Source: Exiguobacterium sp. J17977 (GTDB lineage Bacteria > Bacillota > Bacilli > Exiguobacteriales > Exiguobacteriaceae). Taken from it: DNA of 64,000 nt. The stretch spans positions 186,001 to 250,000 of the forward strand of contig NZ_JAEQBB010000002.1 in NCBI RefSeq assembly GCF_018616375.1. Direction: 5' to 3'. This document shows, piece after piece, positions 35,182 through 40,947 of the stretch; the first letter of the stretch is position 1, and every line of letters begins with the position of its first letter. Under the pieces are notes generated by a model. The model did not search any database. It worked only from the letters and a program-made list of their open reading frames with translations, and had not been told where the DNA came from. Position numbers and translations under genes: made by a program.

Positions 35182-35220
35182 GCAACATGGCCTGATCGTC
35201 GCGATCAGGCCATGTTTTAT
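35182..35220. terminator. Bidirectional terminator between the lipase and GNAT genes
   Basis: A perfect 15-bp stem (aacatggcctgatcg and its complement) around TCG, with T-rich flanks. Confidence 0.93.
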
Positions 35221-35888
35221 CGTTCATATTTGACGAGCCAGCTCTCCCCGTCGCGTGTCATCATCGTCCCGAACCAGCCTGCTTTCAATAAGGCGACTTG
35301 CTTCTCCGTCTCGCCCATATCGAGCCACGTCGCCTCACCGGACGGTTGCCAGTCGCTATGCAGTTCCTTCATAAAAATGTAACGCAGCTTTCCGCCATAT
35401 TTCGGTTTGAGGGCACCGATGCGAAGGCCGAGGGCGAACTTGTCCTTCAGGCTCGGGATATTGAACGGCGCGACGGTCGCGCAGACGAGGTCGAACCGAC
35501 TGCCCTGTTCAAGCTCTTCCATGAGTAGCCTACCTAGATGCTGTTGCAGACCATAGCCGCGGTAATCCGGATGAACGTTTGTCACTTCTTGATACAAGAT
35601 GCGGTCGAGCGCATCAGACGGATAACCGATGTCGTATCCTAGATGCTCTTCGTCGAGCGGCGGGATCAGGAGTGCACGGAACGCAATCAACGTCCCCTCG
35701 TGATACGCCCCAATCAACGTACGGTCGGTCAATAGCTTCACGAACTCATCAGTTGTGAGGGACTGGTACTGGCTTCCTTCCGTCAATGTGGCCATGACTT
35801 CCTGTTGCACCGCCTCGACTTGTTCGAGCTCTGTCATCGTCAAATAGTTGACCTCGATGTCGAGACCGTTACAATCACCGCGCCACAT
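35217..35888 (-). CDS. GNAT family N-acetyltransferase in the epimerase operon
   Basis: A 223-residue acyl-CoA-dependent N-acyltransferase. The fold is readable: strand beta4 in LYQEVTNVHPDYRGYGLQQHLG (about 97-118), containing the RGYGLQ pyrophosphate-binding motif, then FDLVCATVAPFNIPSL. It is longer than most GNATs, with an extra C-terminal 'TEKQVALLKAGWFGTMM' portion. The start lies inside the 3' end of the epimerase gene (14-bp overlap), with GGAGGGG six bases upstream, so the two are coupled. By context it may acylate the amino group of the epimerase substrate or product; this is inference. Confidence 0.78.
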   Translation of the reverse strand: MWRGDCNGLDIEVNYLTMTELEQVEAVQQEVMATLTEGSQYQSLTTDEFVKLLTDRTLIGAYHEGTLIAFRALLIPPLDEEHLGYDIGYPSDALDRILYQEVTNVHPDYRGYGLQQHLGRLLMEELEQGSRFDLVCATVAPFNIPSLKDKFALGLRIGALKPKYGGKLRYIFMKELHSDWQPSGEATWLDMGETEKQVALLKAGWFGTMMTRDGESWLVKYER

Positions 35889-37005
35889 GGTCGGCCCCTC
35901 CGACGACGTACGTCGCCGTTGTCAGCCGTGACAAGACGGCCTCATCGACGTCGACACCGAGACCTGGCCCATCGGACAGGCGGATGAATGGCAAGTCGTA
36001 CATTAAGTTGCCGATGTCTTCGGCGAAACGAAGCGGACCTGTCAACTCGACCGATTGGACGATTTTGCTCGAGAAGGCGACATGGAAGCCTGCACTCGAG
36101 GCGACCGACGACTCGACCATCGACCCGATTTGACACTCGATGCCCGACATTTCGGCCATATGCACGAGTTTTTTCGCCGGATAGATGCCGCCACACTTCA
36201 TCAGTTTAATGTTTACTTTGTGGGCGGCCTGCATCATCGTCAACCGACGCATCTCCGTCACGCCGCGCACGCCTTCATCAATCATGAGCGGCACCGTGAT
36301 TTTCCCTTTCACTTCGACCATGCCTTCAAAGTCGTCGGCCTTGACCGGCTGTTCGACCCAATCGATTTGGAATGGCTCGAGCTGCTTCATCGCTTGAAGT
36401 GTCTTGGCGGCATTCACCCAGCCTTGATTGACGTCGACCCGAATCGGCACGTCTGGACCGACGGCACGACGGACCGCCTCGACCCGACGTACGTCCGAGG
36501 CGACGTCGACGCCGACTTTCATCTTGACGGCCGTGTACCCTTGTTCAATCTGTTCGCGAGCCTCGGCCGCCATCGCCTCCGGCTCGCCGATACTGAGGAC
36601 GTGCGTGACCGGAAACGCGTCGTGATAACGGCCACCGAGCAAATCATACACTGGAAGCCCGAGCTTTTTCCCGACGACGTCATGACAGGCGATATCGAGC
36701 GCCGCCTTCGCCGCCGGCACGTCACGGATGGCCCGGTCCATCACGTCGTGAATCCGTTCCATCTGCAGCGGATTTTCGCCAATCAAGAGTGGCCCGAGAA
36801 CATGTCGAATCACACTGATTGTACTATCGAGCGATTCGCCCGTGACGTGTTCATCGGCGACGGCCTCTCCATAGCCGACATGACCACATTCGGTCGTCAA
36901 TTTTACAATCACCGACGGCATGTCGTCATAACGATGGTAACTGACGATGAACGGCACTTTTAACGGTAAACGAATCGCAAACAGTTCAATCTTGTCTATT
37001 CTCAT
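35875..37005 (-). CDS. Enolase-superfamily epimerase, dipeptide epimerase-like (YkfB type)
   Basis: A 376-residue muconate-lactonizing-enzyme-subgroup protein. The catalytic lysines are K161 and K163 (KMKV) on one face and K267/K270 (KLMK) on the other; metal ligands are D191 (DVNQGW), E218 (WVEQP) and D243 (IDEG). The run IKLMKCGG and the later IECQIGSMVESS resemble L-Ala-D/L-Glu epimerase YkfB, which interconverts murein dipeptides. N-acylamino acid racemases share this fold, so that activity is the main alternative. Its promoter, at 37043-37071, carries 11-bp tandem repeats shared with the NhaC gene. Confidence 0.82.
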   Translation of the reverse strand: MRIDKIELFAIRLPLKVPFIVSYHRYDDMPSVIVKLTTECGHVGYGEAVADEHVTGESLDSTISVIRHVLGPLLIGENPLQMERIHDVMDRAIRDVPAAKAALDIACHDVVGKKLGLPVYDLLGGRYHDAFPVTHVLSIGEPEAMAAEAREQIEQGYTAVKMKVGVDVASDVRRVEAVRRAVGPDVPIRVDVNQGWVNAAKTLQAMKQLEPFQIDWVEQPVKADDFEGMVEVKGKITVPLMIDEGVRGVTEMRRLTMMQAAHKVNIKLMKCGGIYPAKKLVHMAEMSGIECQIGSMVESSVASSAGFHVAFSSKIVQSVELTGPLRFAEDIGNLMYDLPFIRLSDGPGLGVDVDEAVLSRLTTATYVVGGADHVAR

Positions 37006-37042
37006 ATCTATTCTCCTTTACTTCTTACGTGTCATTAGCTAT

Positions 37043-37071
37043 ATTGTCGTTAAATAGTCGTTAAATTGCAA
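37043..37071 (-). promoter_or_regulatory. Epimerase promoter containing 11-bp tandem repeats (37046-37067)
   Basis: On the minus strand, TTGCAA (37071-37066), a 17-bp spacer and GACAAT (37048-37043). On the plus strand the same bases read GTCGTTAAATA then GTCGTTAAATT, two 11-bp direct repeats that fill the spacer. A looser copy, GTCATTAGCTA, lies at 37031-37041. The repeats recur upstream of the NhaC gene. Confidence 0.65.
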
Positions 37072-37083
37072 GGAGGAGTTTTG

Positions 37084-38277
37084 ATGTCCATCCATATCGC
37101 CATCGTCGGATCGCACGAATTCGTGGAGACGATTCGCTCGCTCGGTTCACCAGAGGACGTCCGGTTCGCCTATCATCCGTATGAGCATCCACACGAAGCG
37201 GCGACTATCGCTCAAACACTCGGCTCGTTCGACGGCGTCTTTTTTTCCGGCTCGTTCCCGTTCGCCTATGCAATCCCTCACCTTAGCCACGTGGCAGCAC
37301 ATCACGTCGTCCAGGACGAGACTGTCCTCTTGACGACGCTCTTATATGCGACGCTCACCCACTCCGTGTCGCTCAATCAAATATCCATCGATTTGGTCGA
37401 CCCGGAACGGCTGACATCGATTCTCGACTCGTTCCCGAACGAACGGGGCATCCCCACCGTCATGCGCATCAGTCCTGATTTAGCCTTCGAGGACGTCATC
37501 GCCTTTCACGCCAGCCACCAAGTGAAGCAAACTTCGCTAGCCATCACGAGCATCGAGCGGGTGCATCATGAGCTCGTTCGTACCGGATTGAACAGCCAAC
37601 TGATGATTGAGCCGACAGCGACCGTCAGGCATCATCTCGACCAGTTGATTCAACAAGTGCGGCAACAGTTGGCCGATGCCGCCCAGTTCGCCATCATCCG
37701 CTACGACACAGACGATATATCATTGCGGGATCACCTCGCCTCGGTCCGATATCTCGGTGGACATCTCGAGTCCGCTGAGGACCTTCTCCTCACGGTATTG
37801 ACGACAAAAGGTGAAGTGATGAACGCGTTCGAAGAAGATACGCTCGCACCGAACGGGACGTACCGCATCGGAATCGGCTATGGCACGGACTATCAACAGG
37901 CGGACGAGCATGCTCAAATCGCCTTGTCTGCCGCAAGTAAAGAGCGCATCCGCATCGTCGATGATTCGAAACGATTATCGTTCCCAACCCGTGACGCGCA
38001 AATCCCGTATCGCGTGACGGAACAACTTGCCTTCGACTTCATCAAACAAGCCGGAGTCAGCCCCGTCAATATCGGGAAGATTTTACAGTTCGCCAAGCGA
38101 AAGCATGAATTCACGGCTAAAGAGTTGACCGACTATCTCGATGTGACGCGACGGACTGCGGAACGGCTCATCAAAAAACTTCATGACGCCGGCATCGTCG
38201 ATGTGATCGGTGAAGAGATGAGCTATGGCCAAGGCAGGCCTCGCGCCGTCTATAAATTCAAATTCCCGACCTCATGA
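37084..38277 (+). CDS. HTH transcriptional regulator with GGDEF-like sensory middle region
   Basis: A 397-residue protein divergent from the epimerase. The last 60 residues form a winged helix: 'FTAKELTDYLDVTRRTAERLIKKLHDAGIV' followed by a glycine-rich wing and a basic strand. The middle (about 190-300), ending IGIGYGTDYQQADEHAQIALSAA, resembles the degenerate GGDEF-like domain of CdaR-type regulators and has no catalytic GGDEF motif. The N-terminal part resembles a periplasmic-binding-like or receptor fold. The ATG at 37084 follows AAGGAGGAG. Its proximity to GTCGTTA repeats makes it the likely binder at both the epimerase and NhaC promoters. Confidence 0.72.
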   Translation: MSIHIAIVGSHEFVETIRSLGSPEDVRFAYHPYEHPHEAATIAQTLGSFDGVFFSGSFPFAYAIPHLSHVAAHHVVQDETVLLTTLLYATLTHSVSLNQISIDLVDPERLTSILDSFPNERGIPTVMRISPDLAFEDVIAFHASHQVKQTSLAITSIERVHHELVRTGLNSQLMIEPTATVRHHLDQLIQQVRQQLADAAQFAIIRYDTDDISLRDHLASVRYLGGHLESAEDLLLTVLTTKGEVMNAFEEDTLAPNGTYRIGIGYGTDYQQADEHAQIALSAASKERIRIVDDSKRLSFPTRDAQIPYRVTEQLAFDFIKQAGVSPVNIGKILQFAKRKHEFTAKELTDYLDVTRRTAERLIKKLHDAGIVDVIGEEMSYGQGRPRAVYKFKFPTS

Positions 38278-38294
38278 GGCCGGGAATTTTTTAT
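38260..38294. terminator. Bidirectional terminator between the regulator and NhaC genes
   Basis: attcccg and cgggaat pair, extended by cctcatgagg inside, and TTTTTT follows. Confidence 0.9.
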
Positions 38295-39718
38295 TGTGCA
38301 GCTTGTTGTTCAATCGGTGGTTCTGCACTCAACACAGCAATCCGTTCAATCGTGAAGCCTGTGAACGCATAGATGATTGAAATGACAGGAACGACAAAGT
38401 TTAAGATAGCGTATGGCGCGTATTCGAAAGCCCCGACGCCGAGTGTCCCGAGAATGAACACGCCGCACGTATTCCACGGGATGAAGACCGACGTGAGCGT
38501 ACCGCCGTCTTCAAGCGCTCGCGACAAGTTCTTCGAATGAAGTCCCATCTTCTCGTAGGCACTGGCGAACATGCGTGACGGCACGACGATCGAGATGTAT
38601 TGTTCGGAACATGATGCGTTCGTCGCGAACGCCGCTAAAATCGTCGAAGCGACCATCGATCCGGCCGTCTTCGCAAGTTTGACGATTTGGTTCATGATGG
38701 ACTGGAGCATGCCCGAGTATTCCAAGATGCCCCCAAACGTCATCGCGACGATCGTCATCGAAACGGTATACATCATCGCATCGAGACCACCCCGACTGAA
38801 CAAGTTATCGACGAGTTCGTTGCCGGTGTCGATCACGTATCCACTTTGGAGCGCGCCGACACTATCTGAGAGCGAGCCGCCTTGGACGATGACTTGCGCC
38901 AAAAAGCCAAGGGCGATGCCGACGACGAGTGCCGGAATGGCCGGCACTTTTTTCGCGACGAGCGCGATGACGGCGAGCGGGATTAGCAACAACCACGGTG
39001 AGATGACAAAACTGTCTTTTAAAATCGCGAGCGTCTGGACGATTTCCGACGAGTCCGTCGTCGTCTCGCTGAAGCGGCGGCCGAGCCACCAATAGGCGCC
39101 AAGCGCGATGATGAGCCCTGGAATCGTCGTATACAGCATGTGACGGATATGTACGAATAAATCGGTATGCGTCAAACCGGCAGCCAAGTTCGTTGTATCT
39201 GACAATGGTGACATCTTATCTCCGAAGTAAGCGCCTGAAATGACGGCTCCGGCGACCATCGGCGCAGGTATCCCCATACTGAGCCCGATGCCCATCCCGG
39301 CGACTCCGATCGTCCCCATCGTCGACCATGAACTGCCGATCGAGAGCGCGACGACCGCACAGATGATACAAATCGTCACGAGGAAATAGGCCGGCGAGAT
39401 AATCGTCAACCCATAATAAATCATCGTCGCGACGACACCTCCCCCAATCCACGCCCCGATCGTCAAGCCGACCAAGATGATGATGACGACCGCCGGTAAG
39501 GCGAGCCGAATCCCTTTGTACATCATCTCTTCAATCTCTTTCCACTTATAGCCGTGTCGCCAGGCGACGAGTGCCGCCACCGCCGTCCCGATGATGAGCG
39601 GGATGTGTGGCCCTTGTTTTAATTGGACGATGGCTACGAGCATGACCCCAATCATGACAAGTAGCGGCAATACCGCCCAGCGAAGCTTCATGTCTACCTT
39701 GTTCCCCTGTTGTTCCAT
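38291..39718 (-). CDS. NhaC family Na+/H+ antiporter or sodium-coupled solute exchanger
   Basis: A 475-residue protein with about eleven to twelve membrane helices. Family landmarks are SIGSSWSTMGTIGVAG (about 128-143), GAYFGDKMSPLSDTTNLAA (about 163-181) and FATNASCSEQY. NhaC relatives include the Bacillus malate/lactate exchanger MleN, so the cargo may be an organic or amino acid and not only ions. Its promoter carries both a perfect cre and the GTCGTTA repeats found at the epimerase promoter, linking it to that pathway. It follows the M20 gene by 134 bp on the same strand. Confidence 0.87.
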   Translation of the reverse strand: MEQQGNKVDMKLRWAVLPLLVMIGVMLVAIVQLKQGPHIPLIIGTAVAALVAWRHGYKWKEIEEMMYKGIRLALPAVVIIILVGLTIGAWIGGGVVATMIYYGLTIISPAYFLVTICIICAVVALSIGSSWSTMGTIGVAGMGIGLSMGIPAPMVAGAVISGAYFGDKMSPLSDTTNLAAGLTHTDLFVHIRHMLYTTIPGLIIALGAYWWLGRRFSETTTDSSEIVQTLAILKDSFVISPWLLLIPLAVIALVAKKVPAIPALVVGIALGFLAQVIVQGGSLSDSVGALQSGYVIDTGNELVDNLFSRGGLDAMMYTVSMTIVAMTFGGILEYSGMLQSIMNQIVKLAKTAGSMVASTILAAFATNASCSEQYISIVVPSRMFASAYEKMGLHSKNLSRALEDGGTLTSVFIPWNTCGVFILGTLGVGAFEYAPYAILNFVVPVISIIYAFTGFTIERIAVLSAEPPIEQQAAQ

Positions 39719-39753
39719 GTGTCTTCCTCCCCGATAGCGAAAGATTCTGAATT

Positions 39754-39775
39754 GTCGTTATATTGTCGCTAATAA
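39754..39775. repeat. 11-bp tandem repeat shared with the epimerase promoter
   Basis: GTCGTTATATT followed directly by GTCGCTAATAA. The spacing and core equal the pair at 37046-37067. They lie just downstream of the NhaC -10, about 35 bp before the start codon, and are a probable operator. Confidence 0.6.
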
Positions 39776-39779
39776 GATG

Positions 39780-39808
39780 ATGATAACGCTTACATTCGAG
39801 GAAGGCAA
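39780..39808 (-). promoter_or_regulatory. NhaC promoter with overlapping perfect cre (39781-39794)
   Basis: On the minus strand, TTGCCT (39808-39803), a 17-bp spacer and TATCAT (39785-39780). TGATAACGCTTACA on the plus strand satisfies all fixed cre positions and covers the -10 and part of the spacer. Confidence 0.68.
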
Positions 39809-39852: not shown

Positions 39853-40947
39853 TCATATAGCGTGTACGGCCCGGCGCAACGTATCGGCGAGCAAATCGGC
39901 CGCTTCCGGTAATACGTCACGATCGAACGTCATCTGTGGATGATGAAGCCCTGGCGTCAAATTGGCCCCGATTCCAATCATCGTCGCATCGAGTCCCGGC
40001 TGTTCGACCGTATAAAAATGAAAATCGTCGCTACCTGACGTGATGATGCGATCGACGAGCGCTTCGGCGCCGAACCGCTCGCTTATCGCTTCGGCCGCAT
40101 GACGGCTCGAACGCTCGCCAATCAAGGCGCCTGGGGTGAAATCTTGCCATTCCCAGTCAATCGTCACCCCATGCAGGATGGCAATCTGGTGCAACATCGT
40201 CTCGACCCGGTCGCGCAGCTCGAGCAGTTCCTTGTTCTGTTGGGCTCGGACGTCAATCGAGAACGTCGCATTACCCGGAATGATATTTAAATTGTCACTC
40301 CCGGCCTGGACGCCCGTCAATTTGATTGAATGTGGCTCGAACGGCGACAAATAGATGCTTTTGAGCATCTGTTGAATCGTGAAGATGACGTCTAACGCGT
40401 TCTGACCTTGATGCGGCCGTGCGCCATGAGCATCGTCGCCGCTGATTCTGCCTTTCAAGAAGAAGGCGGCCCCGTGTTGAATCGCAGCCGCATATTGACC
40501 GCGTTTCAGTTCCTCGAGCGGACGCAAATGAATACCGTACAGCTGACTGACGTCTTTTAACGCCCCGTGTCGAATCATCGCGAGCGACCCATTGCCTTGT
40601 TCTTCAGCCGGTTGGAATATAAACCGGACCCGTTTCGACAAGTGTTCGTGTCGCAACGCATCAAGTGCACCGAGCACCATGCTAATATTGGCATCGTGGC
40701 CACATGAATGGTTCGCTTGGAACGTCCCGTCAACTTGTTGCCATAACGCGTCGATGTCGGCCCGGACAGCGATGACATCATCTCCCTCACCAATCTCGGC
40801 GATGACGCCGGTGACGTCGGCAAACGTTTCGTGACGGACTTGCCATGACGTCAAAATATCGGCAATCGTCTTCGTCGTCTCGATTTCTTTCCAGCTCACT
40901 TCGGGATGGGCATGAAAATGCTCAAACCAGTTCAATACGTTCGTCAT
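39853..40947 (-). CDS. M20 family amidohydrolase (N-acyl-amino acid deacylase-like)
   Basis: A 364-residue metalloenzyme of the M20D group (AbgB, HipO, N-acetyl-diaminopimelate deacetylase). Metal and catalytic residues are visible: VRADIDALW (near residue 62), NHSCGHDANISM (about 79-90), FQPAEEQGNGS (about 110, with the catalytic Glu) and a final GIGANLTPGLHHPQ with the last ligand. The lid domain spans about 165-280. Such enzymes remove acyl groups from amino acids or split dipeptides. It lies 20 bp downstream of the DoxX-like gene and upstream of NhaC; with the nearby GNAT and epimerase it suggests an N-acyl or dipeptide route. Confidence 0.85.
   Translation of the reverse strand: MTNVLNWFEHFHAHPEVSWKEIETTKTIADILTSWQVRHETFADVTGVIAEIGEGDDVIAVRADIDALWQQVDGTFQANHSCGHDANISMVLGALDALRHEHLSKRVRFIFQPAEEQGNGSLAMIRHGALKDVSQLYGIHLRPLEELKRGQYAAAIQHGAAFFLKGRISGDDAHGARPHQGQNALDVIFTIQQMLKSIYLSPFEPHSIKLTGVQAGSDNLNIIPGNATFSIDVRAQQNKELLELRDRVETMLHQIAILHGVTIDWEWQDFTPGALIGERSSRHAAEAISERFGAEALVDRIITSGSDDFHFYTVEQPGLDATMIGIGANLTPGLHHPQMTFDRDVLPEAADLLADTLRRAVHAI

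Follow-up and report, generated by a model that had tools for sequence, protein, structure and literature searches.

Tandem 11-bp direct repeats around a winged-helix regulator gene in Exiguobacterium: candidate operators of a regulator family in Bacilli

The locus and its repeats

The window analysed here, a 64,000-nucleotide stretch of Exiguobacterium sp. J17977 (contig NZ_JAEQBB010000002.1, positions 186,001 to 250,000), contains a gene for a helix-turn-helix (HTH) regulator with a pair of 11-bp direct repeats on either side, see Table 1. One pair, here called operator 1, lies in the gap between the regulator and a divergent epimerase gene, and the other, operator 2, lies upstream of nhaC. 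An earlier reading of the sequence alone had pointed out both repeats and the 397-residue regulator between them, and had proposed that the regulator binds them; the repeats and the gene are found exactly where it placed them.

Table 1. Features of the locus, in window coordinates.
Feature	Position	Strand	Description	Basis
Operator 1	37046..37067	+	two 11-bp direct-repeat units, GTCGTTAAATA/GTCGTTAAATT, in the epimerase/regulator gap	sequence and conservation in the genus
Operator 2	39754..39775	+	two 11-bp direct-repeat units, GTCGTTATATT/GTCGCTAATAA, upstream of nhaC	sequence and conservation in the genus
Regulator gene	37084..38277	+	397 aa; predicted PrpR_N-like domain, cyclase/GTP-cyclohydrolase-III-like domain and winged helix	
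Regulator promoter-like pair	37017..37045	+	TTTACT-17-TATATT	promoter scan and genus alignment
nhaC promoter-like pair	39780..39808	- (39808-39780)	TTGCCT-17-TATCAT	promoter scan and genus alignment
Epimerase/racemase	35875..37005	-	enolase superfamily; presumed target	matches below the cut-offs of named NCBIfam models
GNAT-like protein	35217..35888	-	overlaps the end of the epimerase gene; presumably in one operon with it	weak Pfam match, E 0.072
NhaC-family transporter	38291..39718	-	presumed target	TIGR00931, 448 bits, cut-off 370
cre-like box	39781..39794	+	TGATAACGCTTACA, overlaps the nhaC -10	0.34 expected in the window, 2 found
M20 hydrolase	39853..40947	-	upstream of nhaC, beyond a terminator-like stem; functional neighbour	

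A joint repeat pattern with up to three mismatches gives three matches in the window, i.e., both operators and one overlapping partial match, where 0.05 are expected and none of 100 shuffles reaches three. With a looser pattern, the only perfect matches in the whole source genome (2.94 Mb) are operators 1 and 2. At two mismatches, a further overlapping partial match and four places elsewhere are found; the reversed control pattern gives 1. These four places were considered as further regulon members and set aside; three are inside open frames of at least 100 codons and the fourth is at C1:648461. By its perfect sites, the regulon in the source genome is the locus itself only, which narrows the earlier idea of a new regulon.

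Both operators adjoin promoter-like sequences. Operator 1 starts directly after the -10-like hexamer of the regulator in the plus-strand scan, and operator 2 lies 4 bp beyond the -10 of the nhaC pair. In the genus sample (19 genomes, source genome included), TTTAC and TATATT of the regulator promoter-like pair are kept in all 19, the TTTAC overlapping the likely ribosome-binding site of the epimerase, and the nhaC -10, TATCAT, is kept in all 18 genomes with nhaC. Operator 1 had been placed earlier in the spacer of an epimerase promoter. This is not confirmed: the promoter-like pair there is a plus-strand one and is the regulator's, the scan of the gap gave none on the minus strand, and the candidates seen by eye were too weak.

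The cre-like box, as TGATA(A/G)CGCTTACA, is also kept in the 18 genomes with nhaC. Since the box, called by the CcpA consensus, overlaps the nhaC -10, CcpA probably acts at nhaC too, in catabolite repression. A second cre-like palindrome, TGTAAACGCTTACA, is located at 824-837 of the window.

Conservation within the genus

The regulator is present in 19/19 genomes of the genus and the gene order is the same, with nhaC missing from G013. The repeats are conserved upstream of the orthologous genes: the two units of operator 1 are found in 18/19 genomes, the second unit in G003 having one changed base, and both units of operator 2 in 18/18 genomes with nhaC. When G011 is omitted for the epimerase/regulator gap and G013 for the nhaC gap, 17 of the 22 columns in operator 1 and 20 of the 22 in operator 2 are invariant. 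The corresponding counts are 27/57 and 44/110 for the other intergenic columns of the two gaps, and 7/107 for four-fold sites of the epimerase gene. The repeats are real and conserved, and their occurrence is non-random.

Variant loci also occur. In G011 (L032), the epimerase/regulator gap is exactly one 11-bp unit short and the nhaC site is intact. In G013 (L043), nhaC and its operator are missing between the regulator and the M20 gene, and operator 1 and the remaining locus are kept. The regulator gene of a metagenome-assembled genome (L017, G018:C7:50746-51930) has an internal stop, and both operators are kept. In 19 genomes of the sister genus there was no regulator match and no motif match, and the epimerase gave only partial matches at 24–30% identity.

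Predicted domains of the regulator

At the sequence level, Pfam and NCBIfam recognise only the HTH region of the window regulator. An AlphaFold2 model built from 16 sequences (mean pLDDT 83, pTM 0.66) predicts three parts. The fold of residues 1–197 matches PrpR_N (2q5c, Z 18.0, rmsd 2.7, 183 aligned; 2pju, Z 16.5, rmsd 2.4, 181 aligned), and residues 313–395 match winged helices, the best being 6xjf (Z 10.4, rmsd 2.1, 79 aligned). Among the structures listed, the middle domain alone (pLDDT 81) is closest to GTP cyclohydrolase III, 2qv6 (Z 9.6, rmsd 2.8, 94 aligned); domains of Cas10 type and of adenylyl cyclases tie with it to within 1. Z is 8.4 for 1y10 and 8–9 for adenylyl cyclases. Pfam PrpR_N is found below cut-off at the N-terminus in L103 only and not for the window protein, while GCH_III and GGDEF_GdpP appear weakly, below cut-off, in L093 and L199. 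The regulator is therefore predicted to consist of a PrpR_N-like domain, a cyclase/GTP-cyclohydrolase-III-like domain and a winged helix.

Co-localisation with the regulator across Bacilli

The regulator profile matches in 147 of the 398 Bacilli genomes sampled, own genus included. Among the first 40 neighbourhoods fetched outside the genus, 15 (L078–L092), all in genomes of other orders, contain the same four-gene block, GNAT-epimerase-regulator-nhaC, with regulator identities of 27.9–35%. An operator is found in the epimerase/regulator gap of 15/15 of these orthologous loci (14 strict, one changed base in L079) and before nhaC in 11/15, of which three are strict and eight, judged by eye, have at least one changed base. 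Four named Psychrobacillus records likewise have the gene block and the sites; L062 and L078 are probably one genome.

The strict pattern, GTCGNTAWNNNGTCGNTAW, is present in 75/398 genomes. The reversed-pattern control gave about 100 matches in the 398 genomes (counted by hand, none in the own genus) versus 111 for the motif, so raw motif counts are no evidence; what counts is how close a match lies to the regulator. The strict matches outside the genus number 76, and 50 of these lie at most 8.5 kb from one of the 49 best listed regulators, where 0.04 are expected assuming a mean genome size of 3.8 Mb and using only those 49; 37 of the 49 have a strict match nearby. Weaker sites, detected by a matrix from 39 distinct sites, accompany L094, L100, L106, L109 and L110, and the same matrix gave no site of note at L108, L111–L114, L116 and L117.

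The targets near strict sites are again epimerases, M20 hydrolases and transporters. At L093 the target is a family-5 solute-binding protein, and genes for an M19 dipeptidase, an M29 aminopeptidase and a beta-lactamase-like protein are close by. Some motif matches lie elsewhere: beside an M20 hydrolase in a genome with the regulator at another place (L152), before a DcuC-type transporter and an epimerase (L153), and beside a lipoprotein/dipeptidase-like cluster (L160), none of the three with a regulator nearby. These three are possible distant targets. G356 has two near-perfect motif matches (L149, L150) and no regulator relative was detected in that genome.

It could be argued that the repeats are functionless and arose by chance or by mutational tandem duplication, since the G011 gap is short by precisely one unit, as from slippage. 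This is scarcely credible for sites that are conserved across orders, well above the level of four-fold sites, and that are so specific in place, both in the genome scan and by their proximity to the regulator.

The recognition helix and base 4 of the repeat

In motif-bearing relatives, the winged helix is 43–59% identical to that of the window protein and the middle region 16–28%. Residue 360 falls within the modelled helix 356–368, which we take as the putative recognition helix. Regulators with a different recognition helix have no GTCG sites; instead, repeats such as ATCCTTAAATCAACCTTTATT or AACCGTAAATCAGCCGTAAAT, with an 11-bp period, are found nearby. The flanks of 80 regulators, 350 bp to either side, were then scanned with a template that permits G or C at base 4 and that was designed after the motif was already known. 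At a score of 17 or 18 of 18, 38 loci match at a period of 11, and 0–16 loci at each of nine other periods (7–16).

Base 4 follows residue 360. At a score of 17 or more, sites of Glu-360 regulators have GG in 19/21 cases (the others are GA and TG) and those of Gln-360 regulators in 3/3, together 22/24, while Arg-360 regulators have CC in 14/14; in two Glu rows, L088 and L098, the top-scoring flank string differs from the GTCG site. When the cut is lowered to 16, GG is found in 23/28 for Glu (one CC) and in 3/5 for Gln, and CC in 20/20 for Arg. On the tree, a single FastTree run with no support values, at least six changes of residue 360 are counted, and L115 and L211, a pair with Arg and CC, are nested in a Gln group with GG. 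The rule would be explained by Arg reading a G, or Glu reading a C, on the opposite strand.

The Arg half-site was first seen post hoc, then fixed and tested on 20 new loci, several of which are from one genus and thus not independent. At 16 or more anywhere in the locus, it is found in 10 of the 12 new Arg-360 loci and in none of the 8 others. As 7 of 40 shuffled loci also reach 16 (none reaches 17), reaching 16 is weak evidence by itself, and it is recurrence and place that carry the case. For the GTCG type, a site of 16 or more is present in 32/36 Glu-360 loci when the whole fetched locus is used, and none of 40 shuffled loci exceeds 15.

Regulator relatives also occur at L224 and in the plasmid-collection matches H3 and H4 (a Paenibacillus plasmid and two Actinobacteria records). 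Of four relatives on plasmid-collection records, three are annotated as 'hypothetical protein' and the fourth carries no annotation. For the plasmid relatives of Bacillus badius and Paenibacillus cellulositrophicus, no site of 17 or more was found within 600 bp of the gene ends.

The covariation also bears on which protein reads the repeats. The 7-bp motif plus 4-bp spacer seen here has been described for PhoP, and an OmpR/PhoB-type two-component response regulator could in principle bind here, the neighbouring regulator being a bystander. A general response regulator would, however, not be expected to have its sites concentrated beside the family of another regulator, nor to have base 4 follow the helix of that regulator, and we regard this as very unlikely.

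Instead, the regulator encoded between the repeats is very probably their binder. In other orders of Bacilli, too, the site is found with the regulator gene; in the 19 genomes of the sister genus, which have neither the regulator nor an epimerase ortholog, the motif is missing; and the site varies in step with the recognition helix. The binding proposed from sequence alone is supported by all three.

Site geometry and the proposed mechanism

The geometry was examined for 35 strict sites in fetched loci, with gene starts chosen by script and one genome probably included twice. Of the non-regulator targets, 34 are in opposite orientation to the site and one is in the same orientation. For the opposite-orientation targets, the median distance from site to start codon is 40.5 bp, and 31/34 lie within 14–50 bp; 18 regulator starts are 17–29 bp from a strict site. 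Among the target proteins scanned in the Arg/Gln class (n=10) there are seven M20 hydrolases, two MFS transporters and one PGA_cap-like protein, and 6 of the 21 sites in this class have no gene start within 250 bp.

The sites lie just after the -10 of the putative regulator and nhaC promoters and are only 14–15 bp from the nhaC start codon in L081 and L083, so their placement is, as judged from sequence, that of a repressor. The regulator might instead bind the repeats and activate, either by a MerR-like distortion of the promoter or by contacting the polymerase when liganded. This would fit the constant polarity towards the target in the Glu class (34/35), and operator 1 could sit between the weak -35 and -10 of an unrecognised epimerase promoter. 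Sites directly downstream of the -10 of both promoter-like pairs, and so close to the nhaC start codons, would be awkward for an activator, and the polarity is different in the Arg class; activation is thus unlikely. That the repeats are in or near the 5' ends of transcripts could also suggest that they act at the RNA level or as a DNA structure and are not bound by a protein. On the DNA- and protein-level evidence considered here this is highly improbable, given that the repeats flank the regulator gene on both sides, take either polarity towards targets across the family and follow a protein helix in their sequence.

We therefore consider it likely that the repeats are operators of the regulator encoded between them, and that this regulator is a repressor that controls its own gene together with a local peptide/amino-acid regulon and is released by a ligand. 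Autoregulation is suggested by operator 1 lying at the regulator's own promoter-like pair. From the sites, their conservation and co-localisation, the helix/base covariation and the predicted domains, all obtained by computation, we infer the following mechanism. The winged-helix domains would bind in tandem, head to tail and on the same side of the double helix, with a single domain on each 11-bp unit. When bound just downstream of its own -10 and that of nhaC, the regulator would block RNA polymerase, and in the divergent gap it would do so for the epimerase-GNAT genes too. Repression would be released by a small ligand sensed by the PrpR_N-like and/or the cyclase-like domain; the gene content suggests peptides or (N-acyl) amino acids. 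At nhaC, CcpA would add catabolite repression. The relatives in Bacilli would use the same logic, with the 11-bp period kept and the half-site following the recognition helix.

Several observations weigh against this picture. The promoter calls are weak consensus matches, and taken alone the scans are weak against shuffles (2 versus 0.7, sd 1.0, in the epimerase/regulator gap; 1 versus 0.4, sd 0.6, at nhaC), but the alignments of the genus show both pairs to be kept. The absence from the sister genus could be explained by a loss of the whole locus. The nhaC operator is missing from 4 of the 15 orthologous loci (L082, L084, L085 and L087), and 12 of the 49 best listed regulators stand without a strict match close by. 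Conversely, 26 of the 76 strict matches outside the genus have no regulator relative within about 6 kb in the fetched surroundings; 18 of these look like chance, as they have A or G at position 5 of at least one unit, and the other 8 include L152, L153, L160 and the two matches in G356. Sites of 16 or more are absent from 4/36 Glu-360 loci (L108, L111, L113 and L222), and flank sites of 17 or more from 19/33 Arg-360 loci. The Fisher test of base 4 against residue 360 (P 2.6e-10, GG/CC rows) ignores relatedness. Finally, the polarity is mostly reversed for Arg/Gln-class sites, so it is not kept family-wide.

With these points included, we still lean towards a wider reading. A large, unnamed family of one-component repressors, with a PrpR_N-like sensor, a cyclase/GTP-cyclohydrolase-III-like domain and a winged helix, may control loci for peptide and D/L-amino-acid utilisation across Bacilli through one-turn head-to-tail operators. 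Residue 360 would set base 4 (Glu/Gln for G, Arg for C), and this code would have switched more than once. If true, an unnamed regulator family would acquire an operator and a set of targets, together with a recognition rule that can be tested. A spacing that is kept while the sequence preference changes would also make it a good system for studying the evolution of a protein-DNA code, as HTH regulators acting on direct repeats are described as few (PMC9723621).

Comparison with known systems

No description of the regulator family was recognised in the literature, a weak absence since subscription papers were mostly outside the search. Within the searches made, the novelty appears to lie in the operator of the family, in what its targets are in Bacilli and in the helix/base rule. 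The form of the operator has precedents, and the earlier statement that no such operator had been described was too strong: Mycobacterium tuberculosis PhoP is described as binding 7-bp motifs that are directly repeated with a spacer of 4 bp (PMC4832192), and CarH as a repressor binding tandem 11-bp direct repeats, one of which includes a -35 element (PMC9304148).

The gene content resembles a known pathway. D-amino acids can be converted to L-amino acids by N-acylation, epimerisation and deacylation, the N-succinylamino acid racemase pathway. The same enzyme classes adjoin at the locus (GNAT-like, enolase-superfamily epimerase and M20 hydrolase), although the window epimerase falls below the cut-offs of all NCBIfam models matched.

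For the regulator itself, the N-terminal sensory fold is shared with PrpR, the activator of propionate catabolism (2pju, see above). In the window regulator no sigma-54 interaction AAA+ domain was matched by Pfam at E up to 1, and a C-terminal winged helix takes its place. The middle domain shares its fold with GTP cyclohydrolase III and nucleotidyl cyclase domains at Z 8–10 only, and an enzyme function is not proposed.

Among DNA-binding systems, the OmpR/PhoB family (PhoP, and PhoB with its pho box) shares the two-unit 11-bp direct repeat, which in that family is read by tandem winged helices. The window regulator differs in being one-component, with a PrpR_N-like N-terminal fold and no receiver-domain family among its 17 Pfam matches of E up to 1, and its half-site sequence is different. 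CarH/CarA also share tandem 11-bp direct repeats; CarH is described with the half-site nnnnTnnACAn, a MerR-type DNA-binding domain and B12 sensing. None of these was seen in the window regulator, whose Pfam matches at E up to 1 include neither a MerR family nor a cobalamin-binding domain. The KorA-family protein ArdK, a plasmid regulator for which no sequence relation to the window regulator was seen (no search aimed at one was made), is likewise an HTH repressor acting on direct repeats in several promoters (PMC9723621).

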